DNA from: Bacteroidota bacterium
GTDB lineage: Bacteria; Bacteroidota; Bacteroidia; M30B66
Length of the DNA stretch: 64,000 bases
Assembly (NCBI GenBank): GCA_027490225.1
Contig: JAIXYK010000035.1
Location: 62,001-126,000, forward strand
Direction of reading: 5' to 3'
Below, piece after piece: positions 9,482 to 23,323 of the stretch (the first letter of the stretch is position 1; the number at the start of each line of letters is the position of its first letter). The notes beneath the pieces are model-generated. The model ran no database searches and had not been told where the DNA came from. It saw only the letters and a program-made list of their open reading frames with translations. A program made the translations under genes and the position numbers.

Positions 9482-9838
9482 TTATTTTGTAGCAGGTGTA
9501 CCTGCAGGGGCAGGAGCTGATGCTGGAGCTGGTTTTGCGGCTGGCTTTGGGGCTGCTGCTGCAGGTGCTTCTTGTGCCTTTTGCTCACTAATTGATTGTT
9601 TTGCTTCTGGCGAAGATGACTTATTTGTTACAGTATATGCCATACAAAGTATTACTAAGGTTGCAACCAATGTCCAAGTTGATTTCTCTAAAAAATCAGA
9701 AGTCTTTCTAACTCCCATAATTTGATTACTTGAGGCAAAAGATGAAGAAAGTCCCCCTCCTTTTGAATTTTGAACCAACACTACTAAAATGAGAAGAAGT
9801 GCAGTAATAATAATCAAAACAGTTAATATTGCGGTCAT
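9482..9838 (-). CDS. secG: Preprotein translocase subunit SecG
   Basis: A 118-residue inner membrane protein. Two hydrophobic helices (about 3-22 and 55-73) flank the conserved cytoplasmic loop VLVQNSKGGGLSSSFASSNQ, which is diagnostic for SecG. SecG stimulates SecA-driven export through SecYE. The C-terminal 40 residues are a low-complexity Ala/Pro/Lys tail (KPAAKPAPASAPAPAG). The start overlaps the upstream gene's stop by 4 bp, which indicates translational coupling in the miaB-to-secG operon. Confidence 0.95.
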   Translation of the reverse strand: MTAILTVLIIITALLLILVVLVQNSKGGGLSSSFASSNQIMGVRKTSDFLEKSTWTLVATLVILCMAYTVTNKSSSPEAKQSISEQKAQEAPAAAAPKPAAKPAPASAPAPAGTPATK

Positions 9839-10635
9839 GTTAATTCAGTATTTTCAAGTTTTTTTATAAGGGCGGCAAAGTAAGCGCTTTTTTCTGGATT
9901 TAACAAACCTAATTTTTTGTATACTTTCATTGCCCTTTGAATATCTCCCTGTGCCGCGAAAATATTTGCTAATGTTTCAGAAACAATTTCATCATTATCT
10001 TCAATGCTCTTTTTGGCCATTACCTGAGGAGAAAAGAAAGTTGCTTTTGTGGGTTTGCTAATCCTTGGTTCTGTTTGAATAAATTTTTCTATTAATTCAT
10101 TACTGTTTTGAGGATTATCAATTGTTTTTATAGCAACTTTTGGGACATTTGAATTAGTTCCTGCTTTTTGCAATTGAAGCCACTCTGAAAAGGTATGAAA
10201 AGAACTCTCTTTTTTAATCGTGTCTTCCTTTGGGTCGTTTTTCTCTTCTGCTTTTAAAAGAGAAGTTTCATGAGGTTGACGTTCTGTTTTTTTAGTGCCT
10301 TCTTCATTTAAAAAATTTACATTTTTTTGTAAATCCTTAACGGTGTCTTTTTCTAGAACGACTTCTATCTTCTCCTCTTCAATTTCATTACTAATTGCTT
10401 TTTTCTCTTCATTTAATAGTTGCCAAAGAGTTTTTCTATCATATGTCTGAATAGATGTCCTTCTTATTTGATTACTAAATCGATAATCTTCGCTAGATTT
10501 CAAAGAGAAAGCAAACAATATTTGCGCTGTTTGAAAATATGGGTAACTAATTGTTACTTCTTTTAACTCATTTTCATAAGTAAAAGCATGATTTTGAGGA
10601 AATTTTATACAATTATATATAACCGATTTATTCAT
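9835..10635 (-). CDS. Hypothetical protein with C-terminal TPR-like motif
   Basis: A 266-residue soluble protein; I recognise no named family. The N-terminal third has a Bacteroidota-type pattern (a pre-helical IKFPQNHAFTYENELKE segment, then AQILFAFSLKSSEDYRF). The middle (about 85-145) is charged, Lys/Glu-rich and probably disordered. The C-terminus (SETLANIFAAQGDIQRAM, then VYKKLGLLNPEKSAYFAALI) reads as a single tetratricopeptide-like helix pair. It overlaps secG by 4 bp and touches the lptE stop by 1 bp, so it is an obligate operon member, perhaps with an envelope-assembly role by context. Confidence 0.7.
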   Translation of the reverse strand: MNKSVIYNCIKFPQNHAFTYENELKEVTISYPYFQTAQILFAFSLKSSEDYRFSNQIRRTSIQTYDRKTLWQLLNEEKKAISNEIEEEKIEVVLEKDTVKDLQKNVNFLNEEGTKKTERQPHETSLLKAEEKNDPKEDTIKKESSFHTFSEWLQLQKAGTNSNVPKVAIKTIDNPQNSNELIEKFIQTEPRISKPTKATFFSPQVMAKKSIEDNDEIVSETLANIFAAQGDIQRAMKVYKKLGLLNPEKSAYFAALIKKLENTELT

Positions 10636-11123
10636 TACCAGTTAATAAAAGCTTTGTTAAAAATATCTTGTGCTAATTGCTGATTAATCTGTTTTATCAA
10701 ATCAGATTCAATTGACCCTAAATTTTCACTACTTGGAAAATCTGCAAATCGTGAAAATGTGCTTTCAAAGTCTTTAGTAGGGTCTTTAATATTTGTAAAT
10801 TTTACCGAAACAGAAATCGTAAGCCTATTTGAAGAAGCTGTTTGATTGTCAATTGCAACCGGATTAATTCTATAATCTGTAATAGCACCTTCAAATTGCA
10901 AGTCTCCATTTCTTTGAGTAAGTGTTAATGGTGTTTGCGTCTGAAAAAAACTTCTTAAGTCCTCAGTAAATGCTTGGCTAAGTGTCGGCTGAACCAAGGA
11001 TGAGTTGTTTGGAAAAAAAGAAACTGAAATTGTTTTTGATTCTCCAAAATTACCTCCTGATAAAGATACTTTACAACTTAATAATACTGATATTGATAAG
11101 TAAATCAGCGTTTTTCTGATCAT
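10635..11123 (-). CDS. lptE: LptE-family LPS assembly lipoprotein
   Basis: A 162-residue lipoprotein with signal peptide and lipobox ending at Cys17 (SISVLLSC). The body matches LptE-type lipoproteins of Bacteroidota: FFPNNSSLVQPTLSQAFTED early, LQFEGAITDYRINPVA in the middle, then a strand pair RLTISVSVKFTN and the C-terminal helix IKQINQQLAQDIFNKAF. LptE plugs the LptD barrel that inserts lipopolysaccharide in the outer membrane. The start overlaps the sigma-54 activator stop by 4 bp, giving tight operon coupling. Confidence 0.85.
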   Translation of the reverse strand: MIRKTLIYLSISVLLSCKVSLSGGNFGESKTISVSFFPNNSSLVQPTLSQAFTEDLRSFFQTQTPLTLTQRNGDLQFEGAITDYRINPVAIDNQTASSNRLTISVSVKFTNIKDPTKDFESTFSRFADFPSSENLGSIESDLIKQINQQLAQDIFNKAFINW

Positions 11124-12385
11124 AATGGAATACTATATTCTTTAATTTTTCTGTAAAGAGTTCTTTCTGAAATACCCAACTCTTTTGCTGCATTTTTTCT
11201 TCTTCCTCTATACTTCTCTAATGCTTTCAAAATTAATTCTTTTTCATTTCCCATTAAGGACAAGTTTTCCTCCTCCATTTCTTCATGTTCACTAACTGAT
11301 GTATTGGAATTTATTGTACTTATAAAAGGCACTAAAGGAGTTTGAACGCTATTGCGCGAAGAAACTGGATTTTGTATTGGAAATACACCAGTATTTTGAA
11401 CATCATTATAAAGTTGGTTAATGACCTGGGCGTGATCTTCTTGCAAATGTCCATCGAGGTTATTGTTCCTCAAAATGTCAACCATTAGTTTTTTCATTTC
11501 TGTAACCTCTTTCTTCATGTCAAACAACACTTTGTAAAGCAATTCCCTTTCTGAAAAATCTGCCCCATTGTCTTGCTTAATTATAGCAGGCAGTAAGCCT
11601 CCTGCGTGTCCGGGTAAATATCGAGCAAGTATTTCTGCACTTATATTTCTCTCATTTTCAATGATGGAAATTTGTTCCGTTACATTTTTTAACTGTCTTA
11701 CATTTCCCGGCCATCTATAATTTACTATTAATTGCTGGGCTGATTCATCCAACCTTATTGGTGGCATTTTATATTTTTCTGCAAAGTCAGATGCAAATTT
11801 TCTAAAGAGAAGAACAATATCGTTTCCCCGCTCTCTTAAAGCTGGTATTATAATAGGAACAGTGTTTAGACGATAGAAAAGATCCTCTCTGAATTTTCCT
11901 TTTTCTATGGCTTCAGGAATATTCACATTAGTTGCGGCAACAATTCTAACATCTGTTTTAATTACTTTTGAAGCACCTACTTTAATAAACTCCCCTGTTT
12001 CAAGAACTCTGAGTAGGCGAACTTGCGTCTGTAGCGGCAATTCTGCAACCTCATCTAAAAAAATTGTTCCGCCGTTTGCAACTTCAAAATACCCTTTTCG
12101 TGAATCATTTGCGCCTGTAAATGAACCCTTTTCATGTCCAAACAACTCCGAATCGATGGTCCCTTCAGGTATTGCACCACAATTCACAGCAATAAAAGTT
12201 CCGTGTTTTCGCGTAGAATAATTATGAATTACTTTTGAAAACACCTCTTTACCTGTTCCGCTTTCACCTGTTATTAAAACAGTTAAATCAGTTGCAGCAA
12301 CTCGCCACGCAGTATCTATTGCCCTTTCGAGAGTTGGTGTACTTCCAATTATTCCGAATCTGTTCTTTATTTCTTGTAAATTCAT
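11120..12385 (-). CDS. Sigma-54-dependent transcriptional activator (no receiver domain)
   Basis: A 421-residue bacterial enhancer-binding protein. The AAA+ domain begins almost at the N-terminus: Walker A GESGTGKE (about residues 40-47), the sigma-54 contact loop GSFTGA (canonical GAFTGA), Walker B GGTIFLDEV, sensor/arginine-finger segment FREDLFYRLN, and WPGNVRQLKN. A linker of about 120 residues precedes the Fis-type helix-turn-helix NAAKELGISERTLYRKIKEY at the C-terminus. No phospho-acceptor receiver domain is present, so activity is probably set by expression, a partner or the linker. It sits between miaB and lptE, 15 bp after miaB. Confidence 0.93.
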   Translation of the reverse strand: MNLQEIKNRFGIIGSTPTLERAIDTAWRVAATDLTVLITGESGTGKEVFSKVIHNYSTRKHGTFIAVNCGAIPEGTIDSELFGHEKGSFTGANDSRKGYFEVANGGTIFLDEVAELPLQTQVRLLRVLETGEFIKVGASKVIKTDVRIVAATNVNIPEAIEKGKFREDLFYRLNTVPIIIPALRERGNDIVLLFRKFASDFAEKYKMPPIRLDESAQQLIVNYRWPGNVRQLKNVTEQISIIENERNISAEILARYLPGHAGGLLPAIIKQDNGADFSERELLYKVLFDMKKEVTEMKKLMVDILRNNNLDGHLQEDHAQVINQLYNDVQNTGVFPIQNPVSSRNSVQTPLVPFISTINSNTSVSEHEEMEEENLSLMGNEKELILKALEKYRGRRKNAAKELGISERTLYRKIKEYSIPL

Positions 12386-12400
12386 TTCTTTAAAATATTA

Positions 12401-13834
12401 TTAAAGTTTCGAAACTCCCAATAAAGTAGCACTGGTGCATCCTTCAATTATTACATCTACGAAATCCCCTTCTTTGAAGTTTTTCTTAGGAAAGACAACT
12501 ACCTTGTTCTGATCGGTTCTTCCTGACAAATGTCCTTCTGATTTCTTTGAAACTCCTTCAACTAAAACTTTAAATGTTTTCCCAATATCTTCTTTGTTGC
12601 TTTTAAGTGATACGGCGCTTTGTTGAACTATAATTTCACTCAATCTTCTACTTTTAATTTCTGGCAACACATTATCTTTAAACTTTCGCTCTGCAAGTGT
12701 TTTTGGGCGCTCAGAATAACTGTACATGTAGGCAAAATTAAATTTGCTTTCTTCAATTAAGCTAAGCGTTTCTTGGTGGTCTTCTTCTGTTTCGTCGCAA
12801 AAACCAGTTATTATATCTGTTGAGATGCCGCAATCTGGTATAATCTCTCTTATTTTATTTATTCTTTCTAAATACCACTCTCTGGTATAACCCCTGTTCA
12901 TCATTTCCAACACTTTACTGCTTCCAGATTGAACAGGTAAGTGTATATAATTGCAAATATTATCGTATTTCTTTATTGTTTCGATAACAGAATTATTTAA
13001 GTCTTTAGGATGAGATGTTGAAAATCTAATTCTTATAGTTGGAGCTGCAATAGCTACCATTTCTAACAACTGCGCAAAAGTAACAGCTTCTTTTATTTCT
13101 TCTTCTGAATAACTTTCCTTTTTCAAACCTCCTCCAGACCATAAATATGAATCTACATTTTGACCTAAAAGTGTTATTTCTTTATATCCATTATTAACAA
13201 GGTCGATAGTTTCTCTGACAATACTTTGAGGTTCTCGGCTTCTTTCTCTTCCTCGTGTGAATGGCACTACGCAAAAAGAACACATATTATCACAACCTCT
13301 TGTGATAGAAACAAAAGCGGAAACTCCATTTTTTCCTAGTCTTACAGGGGAAATATCTGCATAAGTCTCTTCTTTAGAAAGCAAAACATTTATTGCCCTT
13401 TGACCCACTTCTGCAACTTTTAACAATTTCGGCAAATCCCTATATGCATCAGGACCAACAACCAAATCTATAAGTTTATCATCTTCTAACAGCTTCGATT
13501 TTAAACGCTCTGCCATGCAACCGAGCACACCGATTATAATATCAGGATTCTTTTTCTTTGCTTTATTATAGTCATATAAGCGTTTTCTTACCCTTTGTTC
13601 CGCATTGTCTCTAATCGCACAAGTGTTTACAAAGATTACATCCGCCTCTTCAAAATTTGATGTAGTACTAAAACCTTCATCCTTTAAGATAGATGCAACA
13701 ATTTCACTATCAGAAAAATTCATTGCACAACCATAACTTTCAAGAAAGAGCTTCTTTCCTTTATGATTCTGATTGCCGTCTAAAAGCAGAGCTTCTCCTT
13801 GCCTTGATTCGTCGTGATATAAAGTAGTATTCAT
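12401..13834 (-). CDS. miaB: tRNA-2-methylthio-N6-dimethylallyladenosine synthase MiaB
   Basis: A radical-SAM methylthiotransferase that adds the ms2 group to i6A37 of tRNAs reading U-starting codons. The N-terminal UPF0004 cysteines are in YGCAMN, NTCAIRD and [10 protein letters not shown]. The radical-SAM cluster is CDNMCSFC in [20 protein letters not shown], and a TRAM domain ends the protein. I chose the ATG at 13834 ([13 protein letters not shown]); the frame extends to 13870, but that upstream part lacks family similarity. It is the first gene of the miaB - activator - lptE - TPR - secG operon. Confidence 0.97.
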
Positions 13835-13938
13835 TTTTAAAAATTGGCGCAAGTTACAATTTTCTGCCAATATGACAATTTGACACCTTTGTTTAAGGGT
13901 AGAATTTAACGCTTAAATTTATTTTTCCATTGATATTA

Positions 13939-13946
13939 TAACTTTG
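13939..13946 (+). promoter_or_regulatory. Predicted -7 element for topA
   Basis: TAACTTTG matches TAnnTTTG exactly, 34 bp before the topA ATG, in the 146-bp divergent miaB/topA spacer. The -33 position reads TTTA rather than TTTG. Confidence 0.5.
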
Positions 13947-13980
13947 TGTTTCTTTGCCGCATAAAATTTAAACTCTTTTC

Positions 13981-16302
13981 ATGGTAAAAAACCTAATAAT
14001 CGTAGAGTCTCCAGCTAAGGCCAAAACCATTGAAGGGTTTCTAGGCAAAGATTTTCTTGTTAAGTCATGCTATGGTCACATTAGAGATTTAAGCAAATCT
14101 GATATAAGTATCGATTTGTTGAACAACTATACCCCAAAATATGAAGTCTCTGCCGACAAAAAACAAATCATTAGTGAATTAACAAAACTCGCTAAGGAGG
14201 CAGAAATTGTATGGTTAGCATCAGACGAGGACCGTGAAGGGGAAGCCATTTCTTGGCACTTATTTGAAACGCTCAAATTAAAAGAAAGTAATACAAGAAG
14301 AATTGTATTCCATGAAATTACCAAACCGGCAATCTTAAAGGCTATTGACTCTCCTCGTAAAATAGATCAACATTTAGTAGATGCCCAGCAAGCAAGAAGA
14401 ATACTAGACCGAATAGTTGGATACGAACTTTCTCCCGTTTTATGGAAAAAAATCAAACCATCATTGTCGGCAGGAAGGGTTCAATCGGTTTCTGTAAGAT
14501 TGTTAGTTGAAAGAGAAAGAGAGATTATAAATTTTAATTCTGAATCCTCATATAAAATAGTTGCTAATTTTGATTTTGTTCAAAATGGTAAAGCCTATAA
14601 ATTAAAGGCACAACTCCCCAAAAAGTTTGAAACAAAAGAAAAGGCCGAAGAATTTCTCAACTCGTGCAAACAAGCCGAATTTAAAATCGGTTCCGTTGAG
14701 AAGAAACCAGGAAAAAGAACCCCTTCTGCGCCTTTTACAACTTCAACTTTGCAGCAAGAAGCCTCAAGAAAATTAGGTTATTCCGTTAGCCAAACAATGG
14801 TACTGGCTCAAAAATTATACGAGGCCGGGAAAATAACTTATATGAGAACAGATTCTGTTAATCTTTCTCAAACAGCTTTAGATTCTGCAAAACATCAGAT
14901 TGATTCACAATTTGGCACTAAATATCATAAATCAAGGCAGTTTACTACAAAAAGCAAAGGCGCCCAAGAAGCTCACGAAGCAATTAGGCCAACTTATTTT
15001 GACCAACAAACAGCAGGTGGAGATAACCAGGAAAAGAAACTTTACGAACTTATTTGGAAAAGAACACTTGCATCTCAAATGGCTGATGCTGAATTGGAGA
15101 AAACCGTAGTAAAAATAAATATTTCAACTAATTCTGAAATTTTAGAGGCTCAAGGTGAAGTTATCGTTTTCGATGGTTTTCTAAAGGTTTATATTGAATC
15201 GACCGATGATATTGTTGAAGAAGATGACACATCTGGTTTATTACCTCCTGTTACAGCAGGAATGTTGTTAGCACTAAAAGAAATGACGGCTACACAAAGG
15301 TACACAGCAAGTCCACCAAGATATACAGAGGCTTCATTGGTTAAAAAACTCGAGGAGCTAGGTATTGGCAGACCATCTACTTATGCGCCAACAATTTCAA
15401 CAATCCAAAAGAGAACTTATGCGGTAAAAGAAGATAGAGAAGGAATTGTTCGGAATTATGATTTATTAACATTAAAAGACTCGGTGCTCACTTCTGAAAT
15501 CAAAACAGAAAATACTGGGGCTGAAAAAAACAAGCTTTTTCCTACTGATATTGGAATTGTTGTTAATGACTTTCTAATGGAACACTTCGGTAATATTATG
15601 GATTTTCATTTTACAGCCAAAGTTGAAAAGGAATTCGATGAAATTGCTGAAGGACTTCAAAACTGGACTAAAATGATAGATTCTTTTTACCATCCTTTTC
15701 ATAAAGATGTTGAAAGAACTTTAGCAGAATCGGAAAGGGCAAATGGGGTTCGCCTACTTGGAGTTGACCCCAAAACGGGCAAAAACATATATACACGTAT
15801 CGGAAGGTATGGTGCATTAGCTCAAATAGGTGAAAATGATGATGAGGAAAAAAAGTTTGCCAACTTACGCCAAGGCCAGCGCCTTGAGTCTTTGACTTTT
15901 GAAGAAGCTTTAGAATTATTTAAACTTCCAAGAACTCTAGCAGAATTTGAAGGAAAAGATATGGTTGTTGGTACAGGAAGATTTGGCCCTTATATCCGTC
16001 ACAATAATTCTTTCTATTCACTCGCAAAAACCGATGATCCTCTTTCTGTAAGTGAAGAAAGGGGAATAGAAATTATTTTAAATAAAAGAAAAGCAGATGC
16101 CGAAAAGGTTATATCAAAATTTGGAGGCGACCCAGAAATACAAGTGCTAAACGGACGTTTTGGTCCATACATAACTAAAGGAAAGGAAAATTTTAAAATT
16201 CCTAAAGATATGGATGCAAAATTACTAACGTTAGCTCAATGCGAAGCAATTATTGCAGATGAGGCCAATAAACCTAAAACCGTTAAAAAGAAGAAAAAAT
16301 AA
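13981..16302 (+). CDS. topA: DNA topoisomerase I (type IA)
   Basis: A 773-residue topoisomerase that relaxes negative supercoils. The Toprim domain is intact (IVESPAKAKTIEGFLG at the N-terminus, then ASDEDREGEAISWH with the acidic metal-binding residues). The active-site tyrosine lies in ITYMRTDSVNLS. The PSTYAPTISTIQKR segment and C-terminal topoisomerase repeats (GRFGPYIRHN, GRFGPYITKG) are present. There are no C-terminal zinc-ribbon cysteines, and the protein ends in a basic KTVKKKKK tail, as in other Bacteroidota. The next gene starts 6 bp after the stop, so the two are probably co-transcribed. Confidence 0.98.
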   Translation: MVKNLIIVESPAKAKTIEGFLGKDFLVKSCYGHIRDLSKSDISIDLLNNYTPKYEVSADKKQIISELTKLAKEAEIVWLASDEDREGEAISWHLFETLKLKESNTRRIVFHEITKPAILKAIDSPRKIDQHLVDAQQARRILDRIVGYELSPVLWKKIKPSLSAGRVQSVSVRLLVEREREIINFNSESSYKIVANFDFVQNGKAYKLKAQLPKKFETKEKAEEFLNSCKQAEFKIGSVEKKPGKRTPSAPFTTSTLQQEASRKLGYSVSQTMVLAQKLYEAGKITYMRTDSVNLSQTALDSAKHQIDSQFGTKYHKSRQFTTKSKGAQEAHEAIRPTYFDQQTAGGDNQEKKLYELIWKRTLASQMADAELEKTVVKINISTNSEILEAQGEVIVFDGFLKVYIESTDDIVEEDDTSGLLPPVTAGMLLALKEMTATQRYTASPPRYTEASLVKKLEELGIGRPSTYAPTISTIQKRTYAVKEDREGIVRNYDLLTLKDSVLTSEIKTENTGAEKNKLFPTDIGIVVNDFLMEHFGNIMDFHFTAKVEKEFDEIAEGLQNWTKMIDSFYHPFHKDVERTLAESERANGVRLLGVDPKTGKNIYTRIGRYGALAQIGENDDEEKKFANLRQGQRLESLTFEEALELFKLPRTLAEFEGKDMVVGTGRFGPYIRHNNSFYSLAKTDDPLSVSEERGIEIILNKRKADAEKVISKFGGDPEIQVLNGRFGPYITKGKENFKIPKDMDAKLLTLAQCEAIIADEANKPKTVKKKKK

Positions 16303-16308
16303 CACCCC

Positions 16309-17442
16309 TTGAACCTCATATCGCTTTTTAATCAAGAAATAGTGGCTGAGCTTAAAAGTCAGCATTGGCAAAATAATACTATCGGTAATAATATTGAACA
16401 GTATACTACAGATTTGTTAATACTAGAAGTTGCTCCCAAAGTAGTGCTGCTTTCAGTTGGCGATGATCCTGAAGATGCCTTCATAAAAAATATCAGAACA
16501 CAGCTTTACCAATTATTTCTTCCAAATTCATCGTTTCGAATAGCAGACCTTGGTCATTTTTCCGAAAATATAGATGTATTACCTGAAGCGATTGCTCGAA
16601 TTAGAAAATATGGTTCTATTCCTTTTATTATTTCACCCAATCAAAGCGTAACATTTTCAATTTACTTGGCATATTGCAAACTCGAACAAACTGTAAATAT
16701 TCTTTCTATTGATGATAAGGCTGATTTAGAAGAAGAAGGTAGTGTAATTGGTAACAATAATTGGCTTTCTCATATTTTGGGATATACTCCAAACTACTTG
16801 TTTAATTATTCATTGTTAGGCAATCAAAGCTATTTAAGCAATCCTGATATGCTCGATTTACTTCAGAGTTTAAACTTCGATGTTCACAGACTTGGTAATT
16901 TGAGAAAAACTCTTCAAAATTCAGAACCAACATTCAGAAACGCAGATATTGTAAGCTTTGACCTCTCTTCTATAAGAAGTTCTGATTGCCCCGATAGCAT
17001 TAGGAGAGGCCCAAACGGATTATATGCTGAAGAAGCTTGTCAGTTAATGAGATATGCTGGTTTAAGCAACAAAGTATCTGCAGCAGGGGTTTTTGGGTGG
17101 GACATTCTTCAAATTGATTTACATTTCAGTTCATCATCTTTAACCGCTCAATTAATTTGGCACTTTTTAGATGGTGTTTCAAACAGAATTGATGACGGCA
17201 AAATTGGAAATGAAGATGAGTACGTAATTTATAAAATAGGCAGTGAGGATTTGTCTTTAGATTTAATTTTTTATAAAAATTTAAAAAACGGAAGATGGTG
17301 GATGAATGTACCTATTAACGAGCATAAAAAAGGTAAATTTAATAGGCACCATGTTGTACCTTGTTCAATAGATGACTACAAACAAGCTATGAATGGTGAA
17401 ATTCCTGATACTTGGTGGCAAACTTTCCAAAAGCTTTTATAA
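16309..17442 (+). CDS. Ureohydrolase-fold (arginase/formimidoylglutamase-like) protein, metal site degenerate
   Basis: A 377-residue protein with the overall layout of the arginase/agmatinase/formimidoylglutamase family, but with metal-binding motifs eroded. The usual GGxH is SPNQS (residues 109-113), DAHxD is DDKAD (135-139), and SxDxD is SFDLSS (216-221). Two metal-binding histidines and one aspartate are therefore replaced. It starts with TTG 6 bp after topA and precedes porP-gldKLMN, an association I recall from other T9SS loci. It is probably not an active arginase and may have a structural or ligand-binding role; that role is inference. Confidence 0.75.
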   Translation: MNLISLFNQEIVAELKSQHWQNNTIGNNIEQYTTDLLILEVAPKVVLLSVGDDPEDAFIKNIRTQLYQLFLPNSSFRIADLGHFSENIDVLPEAIARIRKYGSIPFIISPNQSVTFSIYLAYCKLEQTVNILSIDDKADLEEEGSVIGNNNWLSHILGYTPNYLFNYSLLGNQSYLSNPDMLDLLQSLNFDVHRLGNLRKTLQNSEPTFRNADIVSFDLSSIRSSDCPDSIRRGPNGLYAEEACQLMRYAGLSNKVSAAGVFGWDILQIDLHFSSSSLTAQLIWHFLDGVSNRIDDGKIGNEDEYVIYKIGSEDLSLDLIFYKNLKNGRWWMNVPINEHKKGKFNRHHVVPCSIDDYKQAMNGEIPDTWWQTFQKLL

Positions 17443-17588
17443 AGTTTATGTTCTGAATATCAGGCAGTTATTGTGTTTAGCATAATATTTATTAACCTTT
17501 TATTCACAATTTAACTTGCACGTGTTGTTTTTATTTACGTATTTTAGCCTCTTGAAATACTGTATTTAAGAAAAAAACAAGATTTTTG

Positions 17589-18500
17589 ATGAAATTAAGG
17601 TTTACTATTATTTCCCTTTGGGTAATCGCCCTAACTGCCAATGCTCAGCAAGATCCGCAGTTTAGTCAGAACATGTTTAACAGATTAGCTGTTAATCCTG
17701 GCTATGCAGGAACTTCTGATGCTATCTGTGGAACAGCACTATACAGAAATCAATGGCTTGGATTTGAAGGAGCTCCTGCTACATTCGTTTTAGGAGTAGA
17801 TCTTCCTGTAAATGCCTTAAAGGGTGGTGTTGGACTAACATTAATGTCAGATAGAATAGGTGTTGAGAGTAATGTATATGCCAAGTTAGCCTATTCGTAT
17901 CATTTGAAACTTAAAACAGGAACGTTAGGACTAGGTTTGGATTTAGGAATGATGAACAAAGTATTAGGAGCTGGACTTAAACCTTTGCAATCTGGAGACC
18001 CATCAATTCCAACTGCAGCAACTTCTGCAACAGTATTTGATGCTGGTCTTGGCGTCTATTACACAAGTAAAAACTTATATGCAGGCTTATCATCGACGCA
18101 CTTGCCGCAAAGCACATTTGACTTAAACACATCAACTTTCCAATCTCGCAGACATTATTACTTAATGGCGGGATACAGATATACTTTAAATAACCCTGAT
18201 ATCGTTCTTGCGCCATCTATTTTTGTAAAAAATGCAGTAACAACACAATTTGATATAAACTGCAACGTTCACTATAAAAACAAAATATGGGGGGGGCTAA
18301 CTTATCGCTTGCAAGACGCTGTTATTATTATGGCAGGAGCAAATGTTTGGAAAGATTTAAGACTCGGCTTAGCTTACGATGTAAATACATCAAAACTAAA
18401 CCCTTATAATAATGGTACTTTTGAAATAATGCTGAATTATTGTTTCAAAATTAAAACTGAAAAACCGCCTAAGTCTCACTCTACTGTAAGATTTTTATAA
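17589..18500 (+). CDS. porP: PorP/SprF-family type IX secretion membrane protein
   Basis: A 303-residue outer membrane beta-barrel protein of the PorP/SprF family. The signal peptide ends at ANAQ and is followed by the diagnostic QDPQFSQNMFNRLAVNPGYAG, then RNQWLGFEGAP and repeated amphipathic strands. PorP/SprF proteins work with the type IX secretion/gliding machinery in the outer membrane, and some link cargo with particular C-terminal signals. The frame allows a TTG at 17586, but the ATG at 17589 is the natural start. It lies immediately upstream of gldK, as expected for a T9SS locus. Confidence 0.93.
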   Translation: MKLRFTIISLWVIALTANAQQDPQFSQNMFNRLAVNPGYAGTSDAICGTALYRNQWLGFEGAPATFVLGVDLPVNALKGGVGLTLMSDRIGVESNVYAKLAYSYHLKLKTGTLGLGLDLGMMNKVLGAGLKPLQSGDPSIPTAATSATVFDAGLGVYYTSKNLYAGLSSTHLPQSTFDLNTSTFQSRRHYYLMAGYRYTLNNPDIVLAPSIFVKNAVTTQFDINCNVHYKNKIWGGLTYRLQDAVIIMAGANVWKDLRLGLAYDVNTSKLNPYNNGTFEIMLNYCFKIKTEKPPKSHSTVRFL

Positions 18501-18607: not shown

Positions 18608-19939
18608 ATGACTAAATCCCTGAAAACAGGTGCAACCAAAACACTTGCATTTCTGAGTATTACGATTAGTGTCGCCTTAACAAGCTGCGGAAATGATGGC
18701 AATGGTTACCTCACTGGTGTTCAAGATCGTGAGAACTGGTTCCAAGATGACCCTTATGGAATGGTTTATATTCCAATGGGAAGTTTTAATATGGGACCTA
18801 GCGATCAAGATGTTGCTTTCGGTGTTACTGCTCAATCAAAAACTGTTTCTCTTCCTGCTTATTACATGGATCAAACAGAAATAACAAATAATGAATATAG
18901 ACAATTCGTTAATTGGGTTAGAGATTCTATTGCTCGCCGTTTAATGGGCGAAGTAAACGAAGAAGAATGGTTAGTTACCGTAGATGAAAATGAACAAGAT
19001 TACCCTGTTCCTCAACTTAATTGGGAAACCAACCTCAAATATGATATGAGTGATGAGGAGATGAGAGAAGCGCTTGAACCAATGTATCTGCCAGAAAATG
19101 AAAGATTCTATGGTAGAAAAGAATTTGATACACGTAAGTTTCTATATGAATATTGGTGGATTGATTATCAAGCTGCGGCTAAAAGAGGAAACAGGGCACA
19201 AGGTTTAAAAGACCGCTCTGTATTCATAAGAAGAGAAACTGTACCTATTTACCCAGATACTTTGGCTTGGATTCACGATTTCTCATATTCATACAATGAG
19301 CCGCTTACAAATATGTATTTCTGGCATCCTGGTTATGATGACTATCCCGTTGTTGGAGTTAGTTGGAAACAAGCTCGTTCTTTCTGTGTTTGGAGAACCA
19401 ATCTTAGAAACGGATATTTATTCTCGAATGGAAGTTCATATGAGCAAAATTATAGACTTCCAACAGAATCAGAATGGGAATATGCAGCTCGTGGGGACCT
19501 AGATTTAAGTCCGTATCCATGGGGAGGACCATACATCAGAAATTCTGTAGGATGTTTCCTAGCTAATTTTAAACCTTTAAGAGGAAATTATATTGACGAT
19601 GGAGGGTTAACAACTTTAAGAGCTGACTCATACAACCCTAATGCATACGGTTTATATTGCATGGCTGGAAACGTCGCAGAATGGACAAGTAACGCTTACG
19701 ATGAATCTGCTTACAATTTTACTCATGATAACAGTGCTGATTACACTTACGAAGCAAAACCAGAAGACCCTACAGCCTTAAAAAGAAAAGTAATTAGAGG
19801 AGGTTCTTGGAAAGACATTTCTTACTTCCTTCAAAATGGAACAAGAACTTATGAATATCAAGATACATCAAAATGCTATATCGGATTCCGTTGTGTTATC
19901 AGTTACATTGGAAGAGATAAAAATGATGTAGCAGAATAA
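18608..19939 (+). CDS. gldK: Gliding motility/T9SS lipoprotein GldK (PorK)
   Basis: A 443-residue lipoprotein with signal peptide and lipobox VALTSC. The body is a formylglycine-generating-enzyme-like (SUMF1) fold: VYIPMGSFNMGPSDQD, YYMDQTEITNNEYRQFV, YPVVGVSWKQARSFC, RLPTESEWEYAARG, GLYCMAGNVAEWTS, VIRGGSWKD and GFRC near the end. GldK/PorK forms, with GldN/PorN, the periplasmic ring attached to the outer membrane in the T9SS. It is followed by gldL after 70 bp. The fold is used structurally here; a catalytic sulfatase-modifying role is not implied. Confidence 0.95.
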   Translation: MTKSLKTGATKTLAFLSITISVALTSCGNDGNGYLTGVQDRENWFQDDPYGMVYIPMGSFNMGPSDQDVAFGVTAQSKTVSLPAYYMDQTEITNNEYRQFVNWVRDSIARRLMGEVNEEEWLVTVDENEQDYPVPQLNWETNLKYDMSDEEMREALEPMYLPENERFYGRKEFDTRKFLYEYWWIDYQAAAKRGNRAQGLKDRSVFIRRETVPIYPDTLAWIHDFSYSYNEPLTNMYFWHPGYDDYPVVGVSWKQARSFCVWRTNLRNGYLFSNGSSYEQNYRLPTESEWEYAARGDLDLSPYPWGGPYIRNSVGCFLANFKPLRGNYIDDGGLTTLRADSYNPNAYGLYCMAGNVAEWTSNAYDESAYNFTHDNSADYTYEAKPEDPTALKRKVIRGGSWKDISYFLQNGTRTYEYQDTSKCYIGFRCVISYIGRDKNDVAE

Positions 19940-20009
19940 AAATAAAAATCAAACGTTAAATAAATAATCAACTCCCTTAAATTCACACACAAATTAATTA
20001 AAACAAAAA

Positions 20010-20831
20010 ATGGCTAACTTTCTTGCAACGAAAAAAGGAAAACGTGTTATGGGCATGGTTTACGGTATCGGCGCCGCTATCGTAATCGTAGGAGCTCTCT
20101 TTAAAATTCTTCACTGGCCAGGGGCTAACCAAATGCTTACAGTTGGTTTATTAACTGAAGCTGTTATTTTCTTTATATCAGCTTTTGAAAAACCTCACGA
20201 AGAGCCAGATTGGTCGCTTGTTTATCCTGAATTAGCCGGCATGCACGAAGATGATGGTAGTCACGGCGCAATTGACAAGAACAGAAAAGCTCAGGGTTCG
20301 AAAAGCGATGCTGTATCTCAACATCTAGATAAAATGCTTGAGGACGCTAAAGTTGGTCCTGAATTAATTGAAAGTTTAGGAAACAGCCTTAAGGCTCTTG
20401 GAGATAATACATCTAAGCTTGTTGATATTACAGACGCTTCTGTTGCAACAAACGACTATATAAGCAACATCAAGAAGGCTTCAACTTCTGTAGAAGGCTT
20501 ATCTGATTCTTATATAAAAGCATCAGAGTCTTTAACTGGTTTATCTATGACAAATCAAGACGGAGCCACTTATGGAGAACAATTGCAAAAAGTTTCTAAG
20601 AACTTATCTGATTTGAACTCTGTATATGAACTTCAATTAAGAGGTGCTGAGCAGCATACACAAGCAACAAATAAATTCTATGATGGAATTGAACAATTAA
20701 TGAGTAATCTACAAGATTCTGTTTCTGACACTAAAAAATACAAAGAGGAAATGTCTCAACTAACAACGAATCTAACTTCTTTGAATACAATTTATGGTAA
20801 TATGTTAGGTGCAATGTCAACTAACCGATAA
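20010..20831 (+). CDS. gldL: Gliding motility/T9SS motor protein GldL (PorL)
   Basis: A 273-residue inner membrane protein. Two N-terminal transmembrane helices (about 14-33 and 40-58) contain the conserved GALFKILHWPGANQML and LLTEAVIFFISAFEKP segments. Intramembrane glutamates at residues 50 and 60 fit the positions implicated in proton coupling in the F. johnsoniae motor. The rest is a cytoplasmic, Ser/Thr- and Leu-rich coiled-coil domain. GldL with GldM forms the proton-driven rotary motor that powers T9SS and gliding. It is in an operon with gldK, gldM and gldN. Confidence 0.95.
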   Translation: MANFLATKKGKRVMGMVYGIGAAIVIVGALFKILHWPGANQMLTVGLLTEAVIFFISAFEKPHEEPDWSLVYPELAGMHEDDGSHGAIDKNRKAQGSKSDAVSQHLDKMLEDAKVGPELIESLGNSLKALGDNTSKLVDITDASVATNDYISNIKKASTSVEGLSDSYIKASESLTGLSMTNQDGATYGEQLQKVSKNLSDLNSVYELQLRGAEQHTQATNKFYDGIEQLMSNLQDSVSDTKKYKEEMSQLTTNLTSLNTIYGNMLGAMSTNR

Positions 20832-20867
20832 TTTAAATATTTTTTTAACCATAAAAACACATAAAAA

Positions 20868-22448
20868 ATGAGTGGCGGTAAAGAAACCCCAAGGCAGAAG
20901 ATGATTGGTATGATGTACTTAGTACTCACCGCATTGTTGGCCTTAAATGTATCAAAGGAAATATTAGACGCTTTTGTTATTGTTAATAACGGTTTAGTGC
21001 AGACTGATAAAAATTTCAATAACAACAACAGCATTCTTTATAAATCTATCAAAGATCAGCTTGCAATTGCGCCAGATAGAGCAAAAGATGCTGCTGTAGG
21101 AGCTGATAAATTAAAGAAACTGGCTGCCGATATGTACAATCATATTACAGCTATAAAGTCTGAACTTATTGTAGCGGAAGACCAAATAGATAAAGCTGCG
21201 GCCGACAAAATTGTAGATAGTTTAGGCTCTCTTCAAAACAAAGATAAGTATGACAATTCAACGAGAATTATGTGCGGTGAAACACCTGATGGCTCTGGTG
21301 GAAAAGCAAGAATTTTAAAAGATAAAATAATTGCCTTTAAAAAAGAGCTTGTTTCCTTATTACCTGAAGCTGTTAGAAAAACTACTAATCTTGGCCTAAA
21401 TACAGAAGACCCTCCTAAAAAAGGAGTTGAGATTGAAACATGGGAAACAGAAAAGTTCTACCATCTTCCAATTGCAGCCCAAATAGTAGTTCTTTCTCAG
21501 TTACAAACAGAGGTAAGAAATGCTGAAGGAACTGTGTTAAATGAACTTTTTAAATCTATCGGAGCTACAGCTATAAAAGTAGATGCACTAGAGGCACAGT
21601 TAGTTCCATCTGCAAATGTGGTAACTGTTGGTGATGAATTTACTGCTAAAATATTTGTTGCGGCTTTAAATAAATCTGATGTTCCAGACGTTAGTGTAAA
21701 TGGAAGACAAATTACTGAAACAGATGAAAGTGGTTTTATTGTTTACAAGTCGCGCCCAGCTTCAGAAGGTCCTCAAAAAATCAAAGCAACAGTAAAGTAC
21801 AAAGACGCAAAAGGTTTGGATGCTGTTTCAGAAAAAGAATTTGAATTTGTAGCTATTAAACCAGTTGCCGTAGTTTCCCCTAGTAAAATGAATGTTTTCT
21901 ACATTGGTGTAGACAATCCTGTTTCTGTTTCTGTACCGGGTTCTGACCCTAACAAAGTAGAAGCTAGTTTAGTGGGTGCGCAAGGAACTTTAACTAAAGT
22001 AAAACCAGGAGAATACATTGCTAAAGTAACAGGAGGAACGAAGTGTACAATTCCTGTAACAGCTAAAAAACCAGATGGAAAAGGAACCACAAACATGGGA
22101 GCTCCGGAGTTCCGTATTAAACGTATTCCTGACCCAACACCTATGATTCTAGGTAAAAAAAGCAATGAGAGTATCTCTCTTTCTGAGTTAAAAGCCGCAG
22201 GATTTATTTCTTGTGTATTGGAAAACTTTGATTTTCAAGCGGGCTTTAGTGTTTTAAGTTTCGAATTTGGTGCTAATGTTGGAGGTGCTTATAGAAGCGC
22301 CAACAATACTGGTGGTAAATTCGGTTCAGAAATGGCAACAATATTGAACAGCTTAAAGCCAGGAAGTAAAGTTTTCTTCTCCGACATCAAAGCAAAAGGT
22401 CCTGATGGTTCTGTAAGAAACCTTTCTGCTCAATTTAAGATTAAATAA
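20868..22448 (+). CDS. gldM: Gliding motility/T9SS motor protein GldM (PorM)
   Basis: A 526-residue protein with one N-terminal transmembrane helix (GMMYLVLTALLALNVSKEI, about 14-35) inserted in the GldL pentamer. A long periplasmic region follows: a helical D1 domain (about 40-220) and then beta domains D2-D4 (for example EFTAKIFVAALNKSDVPDVS and the C-terminal LENFDFQAGFSVLSFEF). The periplasmic dimer transmits torque to the GldKN ring. It starts 36 bp after gldL and ends 23 bp before gldN. The length is normal for the family. Confidence 0.95.
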   Translation: MSGGKETPRQKMIGMMYLVLTALLALNVSKEILDAFVIVNNGLVQTDKNFNNNNSILYKSIKDQLAIAPDRAKDAAVGADKLKKLAADMYNHITAIKSELIVAEDQIDKAAADKIVDSLGSLQNKDKYDNSTRIMCGETPDGSGGKARILKDKIIAFKKELVSLLPEAVRKTTNLGLNTEDPPKKGVEIETWETEKFYHLPIAAQIVVLSQLQTEVRNAEGTVLNELFKSIGATAIKVDALEAQLVPSANVVTVGDEFTAKIFVAALNKSDVPDVSVNGRQITETDESGFIVYKSRPASEGPQKIKATVKYKDAKGLDAVSEKEFEFVAIKPVAVVSPSKMNVFYIGVDNPVSVSVPGSDPNKVEASLVGAQGTLTKVKPGEYIAKVTGGTKCTIPVTAKKPDGKGTTNMGAPEFRIKRIPDPTPMILGKKSNESISLSELKAAGFISCVLENFDFQAGFSVLSFEFGANVGGAYRSANNTGGKFGSEMATILNSLKPGSKVFFSDIKAKGPDGSVRNLSAQFKIK

Positions 22449-22471
22449 ACCCTTAACTAAAATCTAGTTCA

Positions 22472-23323
22472 ATGAGTTTTTTAAAAGCGATAATTATTCC
22501 TGCTGTATTTATAACTTCTGTTATGAGCGCACAGTCGGTTCTAGATAATGTTTACGTTAGAGAAACATTACCAGCTAGAAAACCCATTCCTTATGCCCCG
22601 CTCAGAGAGGCAGATGTATTGTGGAAGAAACGTGTATGGAGAATCATTGATTTAAGAGAGAAGATAAACCTACCTCTTTTCTACCCAATTCAAGGAGAAA
22701 TTAATGGTTTAAAAAGCTTATCGAATTTACTTTACAAAGCAACAACAGAAGAGGTCTCATTAAGAGTATATTCTGATTATCCTGATGACTTTACAGTTGA
22801 AATGACTCCAGGAGACGTTATTAAAAGAGTGTCGAAAGAGGATTCTATTCCTATGAAAAGCCAAGTTGATCCAAGTCTAGACAGCTTGAATGCTGATGGA
22901 ACTCTATTCTACAAAAAAATTAAAGAAGAATTTACTCCTAGTCGCGTTAAAAAATTCTTGTTAAAAGAAGAATGGTTTTTTGATAAGCAACGCTCTGTTT
23001 TAGATGTTAGAATTCTTGGTATTTGTCCTCTTTATGAAATGGAAGATAAAGAAAAAGGAGACAGATATTTGTTTTGGGTGTATTTCCCAGAAGCAAGAAA
23101 AGTACTTGCCAATCATGATGTTTTTAACAGGTCTAACCCTTCAGAAAGAAGATCATTTGATGATATTTTTTGGAAAAGGCAATTTAGCAGCTACATTGTA
23201 AAAGAAGAGAATGTTTACGATAGAACAATTGCTGAATACAAAAAAGGAATGGACGCGCTTCTAGAAGCTCAAAAAATTAAAGACGAGATTATTATATTTG
23301 AGCACGATTTGTGGGAATTCTGA
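22472..23323 (+). CDS. gldN: Gliding motility/T9SS protein GldN (PorN)
   Basis: A 283-residue periplasmic protein with a signal peptide (IIPAVFITSVMSAQS). It has the family features VYVRETLPARKPIPYAPLRE, ADVLWKKRVWRIIDLREKIN, PLFYPIQGE and RVKKFLLKEEWFFDKQRSVL, then YFPEARKVLANHDVFN. GldN/PorN forms the GldKN ring that contacts the periplasmic end of GldM. It is the last gene of the operon and is followed by a strong terminator at 23363. Confidence 0.95.
   Translation: MSFLKAIIIPAVFITSVMSAQSVLDNVYVRETLPARKPIPYAPLREADVLWKKRVWRIIDLREKINLPLFYPIQGEINGLKSLSNLLYKATTEEVSLRVYSDYPDDFTVEMTPGDVIKRVSKEDSIPMKSQVDPSLDSLNADGTLFYKKIKEEFTPSRVKKFLLKEEWFFDKQRSVLDVRILGICPLYEMEDKEKGDRYLFWVYFPEARKVLANHDVFNRSNPSERRSFDDIFWKRQFSSYIVKEENVYDRTIAEYKKGMDALLEAQKIKDEIIIFEHDLWEF

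Follow-up and report, generated by a model that had tools for sequence, protein, structure and literature searches.

The window, the whole stretch of 64,000 nucleotides of Bacteroidota DNA analysed here, contains a gene whose product resembles the arginases and formimidoylglutamases, lacks some of their metal ligands and is encoded immediately upstream of genes of the T9SS. What does such a protein do? An earlier note, made from the window alone, saw in it a catalytically inactive relative of the arginase family that had been recruited for T9SS assembly or regulation. We have examined the two halves of that proposal, the loss of the metal site and the link to the T9SS, across the class Bacteroidia.

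The gene, its fold and its C-terminal module

The open reading frame occupies positions 16309-17442 of the plus strand. It starts with TTG, stops at 17442, is open throughout and encodes 377 amino acids, which comprise a ureohydrolase fold (approximately residues 20-295) and a C-terminal module; we refer to it as the pseudo-formimidoylglutamase gene. The gene order described earlier was confirmed: topA (13981-16302) is on the same strand and ends 6 bp upstream, porP (PorP/SprF family; 17586-18500, plus strand) begins 143 bp downstream, and gldK, gldL, gldM and gldN follow at 18608-23323, also on the plus strand, with topA, porP and each of the gld genes scoring over the NCBIfam cut-off. The 143-bp gap before porP (17443-17588) is AT-rich and could contain an independent promoter; porP has a TTG start at 17586 with an ATG three bases further on. 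Terminator and promoter scans around the open reading frame gave signals no greater than those in shuffled sequences.

The AF2 model of the protein has a pLDDT of 89.4 and a pTM of 0.91; it was predicted without metals and is silent on metal content. Structure comparison with this model gave a Z-score of 31.8 against T. cruzi formiminoglutamase (rmsd 2.3 over 265 residues) and 30.8 against B. subtilis formimidoylglutamase, and Foldseek gave an E-value of 3.4e-15, so on the predicted structure the protein has the fold of the ureohydrolase (arginase) superfamily, and the arginase-family layout first read from the sequence is borne out. By sequence, the window protein alone matched nothing in Pfam up to an E-value of 1, PF00491 included, its sole match among PDB sequences was B. 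subtilis formimidoylglutamase (E 0.035), and its sole NCBIfam match was hutG (TIGR01227), for which it scored 17.3 bits where the cut-off is 229.15, which does not make it a HutG equivalog. The relationship to formiminoglutamase is nevertheless firm, because a profile from an alignment of orthologues (alignment A1, 29 of 30 rows, the partial L030 being left out) found formiminoglutamase among PDB sequences at E 8.6e-13, and 23 of the 29 aligned orthologues matched PF00491 at E <=0.01 (best 2.9e-29). The protein thus shares with HutG (TIGR01227; PDB 3m1r and 4mxr) the fold over residues 20-295, with Z around 31, and the family keeps a conserved N-terminal arginine and SDAPG/PxG segments; it differs from HutG in having lost three of the six metal ligands, in its additional C-terminal module and in having no hut genes beside it in the window. 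From the arginase family PF00491, whose fold it shares, it differs in having no binuclear ligand set.

The module itself (residues 297-377; 17197-17439, plus strand) is about 80 residues long, is missing from relatives outside the class and is among the best-conserved parts of the protein, with conserved WW, PC, DY and P..W motifs; W330, W331, C352 and P366 are invariant in 132 rows. Among the matches listed, those from outside the class end by model position 323 of 390. Modelled alone, the module forms four strands and two helices with a pLDDT of 75.7. Searches for a known fold produced no confident match (Foldseek best E 1.1; VIA best Z 4.9), which does not amount to proof of a new fold, and members of the family gave scattered weak Pfam matches and a best E-value of 0.022 among PDB sequences.

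Metal-ligand positions and the origin of the class-wide clade

Arginases hold one metal at site A through H101, D124, D128 and D232 and another at site B through H126, D124, D232 and D234, with D124 and D232 bridging. Mapping this numbering, that of rat arginase, on to the window protein aligned its SPNQS, DDKAD and SFDLSS motifs with GGxH, DAHxD and SxDxD, as had been proposed. By comparison with L001, a true PF00491 gene product of the same genome, and with relatives from outside the class, the ligand series H, D, H, D, D, D has become Q, D, K, D, D, S. At least three ligands had been thought lost; the number is exactly three of six, namely H101 (Q112; codon 16642-16644, this and the codons below all on the plus strand), H126 (K137; 16717-16719) and D234 (S220; 16966-16968), while D124 (D135; 16711-16713), D128 (D139; 16723-16725) and D232 (D218; 16960-16962) are retained. 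The six-ligand, two-metal arrangement is therefore absent.

The same pattern holds across the class. We counted ligands in 151 of 180 rows, having dropped those with at least 90% identity; 132 of these are core in-class members, seven degenerate rows from families f21 and f50 were counted apart from them, and L002, which the A1 profile did not reach, is in no count. The 132 core members have D234 in no case and H126 in four, whereas the bridging and site-A carboxylates are strongly conserved (D at the place of D124 in 128, of D128 in 121 and of D232 in 129); the place of H101 is occupied by Q in 113 and by H in 11. Ranked by column entropy over the 377 positions, D218 stands 29th, D135 33rd, D139 49th and Q112 84th, and the lost site-B places of H126 and D234 351st and 181st, respectively. 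Since the private ligands of site B have gone and D124, D128 and D232 have been kept, site B appears to have been dismantled while most of site A has remained under selection. Thus the view that the metal site had been lost stands for the site-B private ligands, which are missing clade-wide, and needs amendment for site A. One close pair of orthologues (L024 and L026) gave a dN of 0.030 against a dS of 0.95 by NG86; in a second pair dS was saturated. Purifying selection of this kind, together with ligand losses common to the whole class, argues that the losses reflect neither chance nor gene decay.

To judge from the alignment, loss of both site-B private ligands should abolish two-metal hydrolysis. 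The protein might still be an active enzyme, working with one metal on a new substrate, and the high conservation of the site-A carboxylates would suit such an enzyme. Replacement of H101 alone is evidently tolerated: T. cruzi formiminoglutamase presumably has Asn there, as the title of PDB entry 4myn (an N114H variant) implies. Z. mobilis arginase has Cys at this place and functions (PMC6988801). Against a working enzyme are the disappearance of both private ligands of site B, the ExNP segment of many relatives and true enzymes, which reads GWDI in the window protein, and the lineages in which the protein persists with hardly any ligand remaining: most site-A residues too are gone in f21 and f50 (seven rows), in f2, f28 and f34 and in rows such as L171, L172 and L173. 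We regard continued catalysis as very unlikely. These last losses also mean that a one-metal site cannot be universal in the family.

The nearest relatives outside the class look like working formimidoylglutamases, because several of them have hutI as a direct or close neighbour. H126 and D234 are kept in every one of the 12 reference rows, of which 11 come from other classes and one is L001 of the window genome. All six ligands are present in eight of the 12, and three have Asn in place of H101. A tree was built from 64 rows, 51 of them chosen from the 139 in-class rows (at <55% identity) and 13 from outside; in it, class Bacteroidia formed one side of a branch with an SH-aLRT of 97, a value from a quick method with long branches flagged. 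The tree needs two state changes for H126, three for D234 and eight for H101, with the stateless row L149 omitted from these counts. On this evidence the class orthologues are a single clade set against the hutI-linked formimidoylglutamases of other classes, and the loss of the site-B ligands is placed by the tree as a shared event near the root of the class. At one locus, L077, a hutI gene (TIGR01224, 428 bits; 11100-12347, plus strand) lies directly downstream of the pseudo-formimidoylglutamase gene and may be a relic of a hut operon or a product of chance; hutI was found beside none of the other loci among L033-L142.

Pseudoenzymes of the ureohydrolase fold are already known. Hai and colleagues reportedly described, in 2015, a eukaryotic example, an arginase-like protein of T. 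brucei that evolved without the binuclear manganese cluster. MetCb is a metal-free subunit of metformin hydrolase and a ureohydrolase-fold pseudoenzyme that has lost its metal ligands (PMC11271267). This precedent raises the prospect that the window protein forms a mixed oligomer with a true ureohydrolase encoded elsewhere, as MetCb does with MetCa. Structures of the MetCaCb type are among its fold neighbours, and another PF00491 gene is present in 48 of 49 genomes that have the protein. The window genome has two, L001 and L002, on contigs C26 and C9, and many of the 49 hold a similar pair. Given how widespread arginase-type genes are, this co-occurrence carries little weight, and genome G054, at 95% completeness, has no other PF00491 match. 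MetCb is encoded with the active MetCa that it binds (PMC11271267), whereas the window gene adjoins topA and porP, has no true ureohydrolase beside it and has its paralogues on other contigs. We judge a partnership of the MetCb kind to be distinctly unlikely.

Association with the T9SS genes and with topA

Of the 395 class genomes sampled, 363 have an orthologue (E <=1e-20) and 375 have GldL (E <=1e-3). Tabulated by hand, 354 of the 395 have both, nine the protein only, 21 GldL only and 11 neither; among the 339 genomes of good quality the corresponding numbers are 314, two, 17 and six. The protein is therefore present in 314 of 331 good-quality genomes with GldL and in two of eight without it, as might be expected of a cytoplasmic protein that aids the assembly or regulation of the motor and ring made of GldK, GldL, GldM and GldN. 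The confinement of GldL over the cut-off to the class, among the genomes listed, and the end of the listed out-of-class matches by position 323 of 390 point the same way. This broad association is real, though based on few losses of the T9SS, and one GldL-negative genome, G511, has GldN.

The exceptions run in both directions. Family f40 allows a cleaner comparison: all of its 101 good-quality genomes have the protein, and 98 have GldL. The three without GldL (G412, G743 and G757) retain intact copies of the protein that score 500-555 bits; G412 also lacks GldN and has no GldK over the cut-off, while its congener G048 has GldL, GldK and GldN, and in G743 and G757 the T9SS was assessed by GldL alone. 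In a fourth f40 genome, G761, the GldL reading frame contains four stops and the pseudo-formimidoylglutamase is intact. Family f40 thus displays decay of the T9SS, with GldL interrupted in one genome and gone in three. Conversely, five genomes with both GldL and GldN (G244, G400, G447, G590 and G025) have no copy of the protein at E 1e-20, and it is missing from f53, from f54 and from some of f32, all of them T9SS-positive families. Presence of the protein is not tied to the T9SS core.

Gene linkage is also variable. Of 107 loci, 33 had too little flanking sequence; among the remaining 74, the gene has topA upstream and gldK downstream in 33, topA only in 13, gldK only in one (L182) and neither in 27 (L040, where only a topA fragment aligned, was counted as having both). 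The gene is thus directly upstream of porP/gldK in 34 usable loci, once without topA beside it, and gldK is not downstream in the other 40, which makes the T9SS neighbourhood one arrangement among several. The neighbours GldK, GldL, GldM, GldN and PorP showed no sequence relation to the protein. Taken together, the exceptions in presence and absence and the 40 unlinked loci leave a T9SS-dedicated role without support, and we consider it unlikely that the protein is a T9SS factor. The earlier note was right about a ureohydrolase-fold relative with lost metal ligands, a loss that at site B extends to the whole clade; its proposal of recruitment for the T9SS did not survive the comparison.

Across the class topA is a commoner neighbour than gldK without being universal. 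A hand count in a set of 60 genomes found 38 of 56 copies adjoining topA on the same strand, 17 that do not and one at a contig edge; in one of the 17, G029, two genes lie between topA and the protein gene. This adjacency, and the 13 loci in which topA adjoins the gene and gldK is absent, could indicate a partner or regulator of topoisomerase I with a bearing on DNA topology. However, the adjacency may reflect only shared expression, about a third of the copies are not adjacent, and f53 and others have no copy at all, so that we would give such a role little credence.

A proposed role, and other features of the neighbourhood

For a protein that is class-wide and under purifying selection, has no full catalytic site and no fixed operon and survives without the T9SS, the reading that fits best is that of a binding protein with a housekeeping role. 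We put at roughly even the prospect that it descends from a HutG-type ureohydrolase and now acts throughout Bacteroidia as a soluble, non-hydrolytic binding protein with a housekeeping role, perhaps with one metal. The scheme that we have in mind would begin with a formimidoylglutamase of the HutG type which, near the root of the class, lost the two private ligands of site B and gained the C-terminal module of about 80 residues. The ureohydrolase fold would then have served as a platform. The preserved Gln/Asp/Asp/Asp constellation of the old pocket suggests that in most lineages it might bind either one divalent metal or a ligand that is small and polar; the C-terminal module, together with an invariant R194/E206/R210 patch, suggests contact with a protein partner. 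The gene, where it lies beside topA, is probably co-expressed with it, and proximity to porP-gldKLMN would be a property of the neighbourhood in one large part of the class and not a guide to the function of the protein.

A sharper version of this reading we hold more tentatively, and we would sooner expect it to fail in some part than to hold in full: that this is a core Bacteroidia protein, likely misfiled as a formimidoylglutamase or arginase, whose ancestor, a two-metal hydrolase, was converted a single time, at the root of the class, into an adaptor that binds one metal or a ligand, carries a new C-terminal module and serves a housekeeping process unrelated to the T9SS. If it is right, a protein of about nine in ten sampled Bacteroidia genomes could be mistaken for a catabolic enzyme, and the gldKLMN neighbourhood has invited a wrong interpretation in terms of the T9SS. 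The family would then offer a well-sampled case of the stepwise dismantling of a two-metal site, in which site B disappeared close to the base of the class and site A survived in most lineages, to be lost later in a few, with the rest of the protein conserved; the role of a metal-stripped hydrolase would become testable in culturable Flavobacteriia. New in the present case are the scale, which is that of a whole class, a loss shared from near the base of that class, the half of the metal site that has been retained and the additional C-terminal module. We found no study of this protein in the open-access literature, which is weak evidence of absence.

The surroundings of the gene have features of their own. 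Upstream in the window, at 9835-16302, P9835, a small open reading frame (10635-11123; lptE is our own label for it, unsupported by any family match), a gene for a sigma-54-type activator and miaB lie on the minus strand, divergent from the plus-strand topA, and this block of four is kept in many related loci. Where topA and gldK are both absent, no widespread recurrent neighbour emerged among the loci examined: an nqrF-like gene upstream in two f14 loci, a ResA-like gene downstream in L165 and genes for CTD cargo downstream in L155 and L170 were considered, and none of them recurs widely. The last two loci, which belong to two families, each have directly downstream a gene whose product, some 1,235 amino acids long, carries a T9SS type B sorting domain (L155, 6226-9945, plus strand; L170, 992-4687, minus strand). 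The two proteins are alike in their C-terminal parts only, and in L170 the sorting-domain gene overlaps the pseudo-formimidoylglutamase gene by 4 nt.
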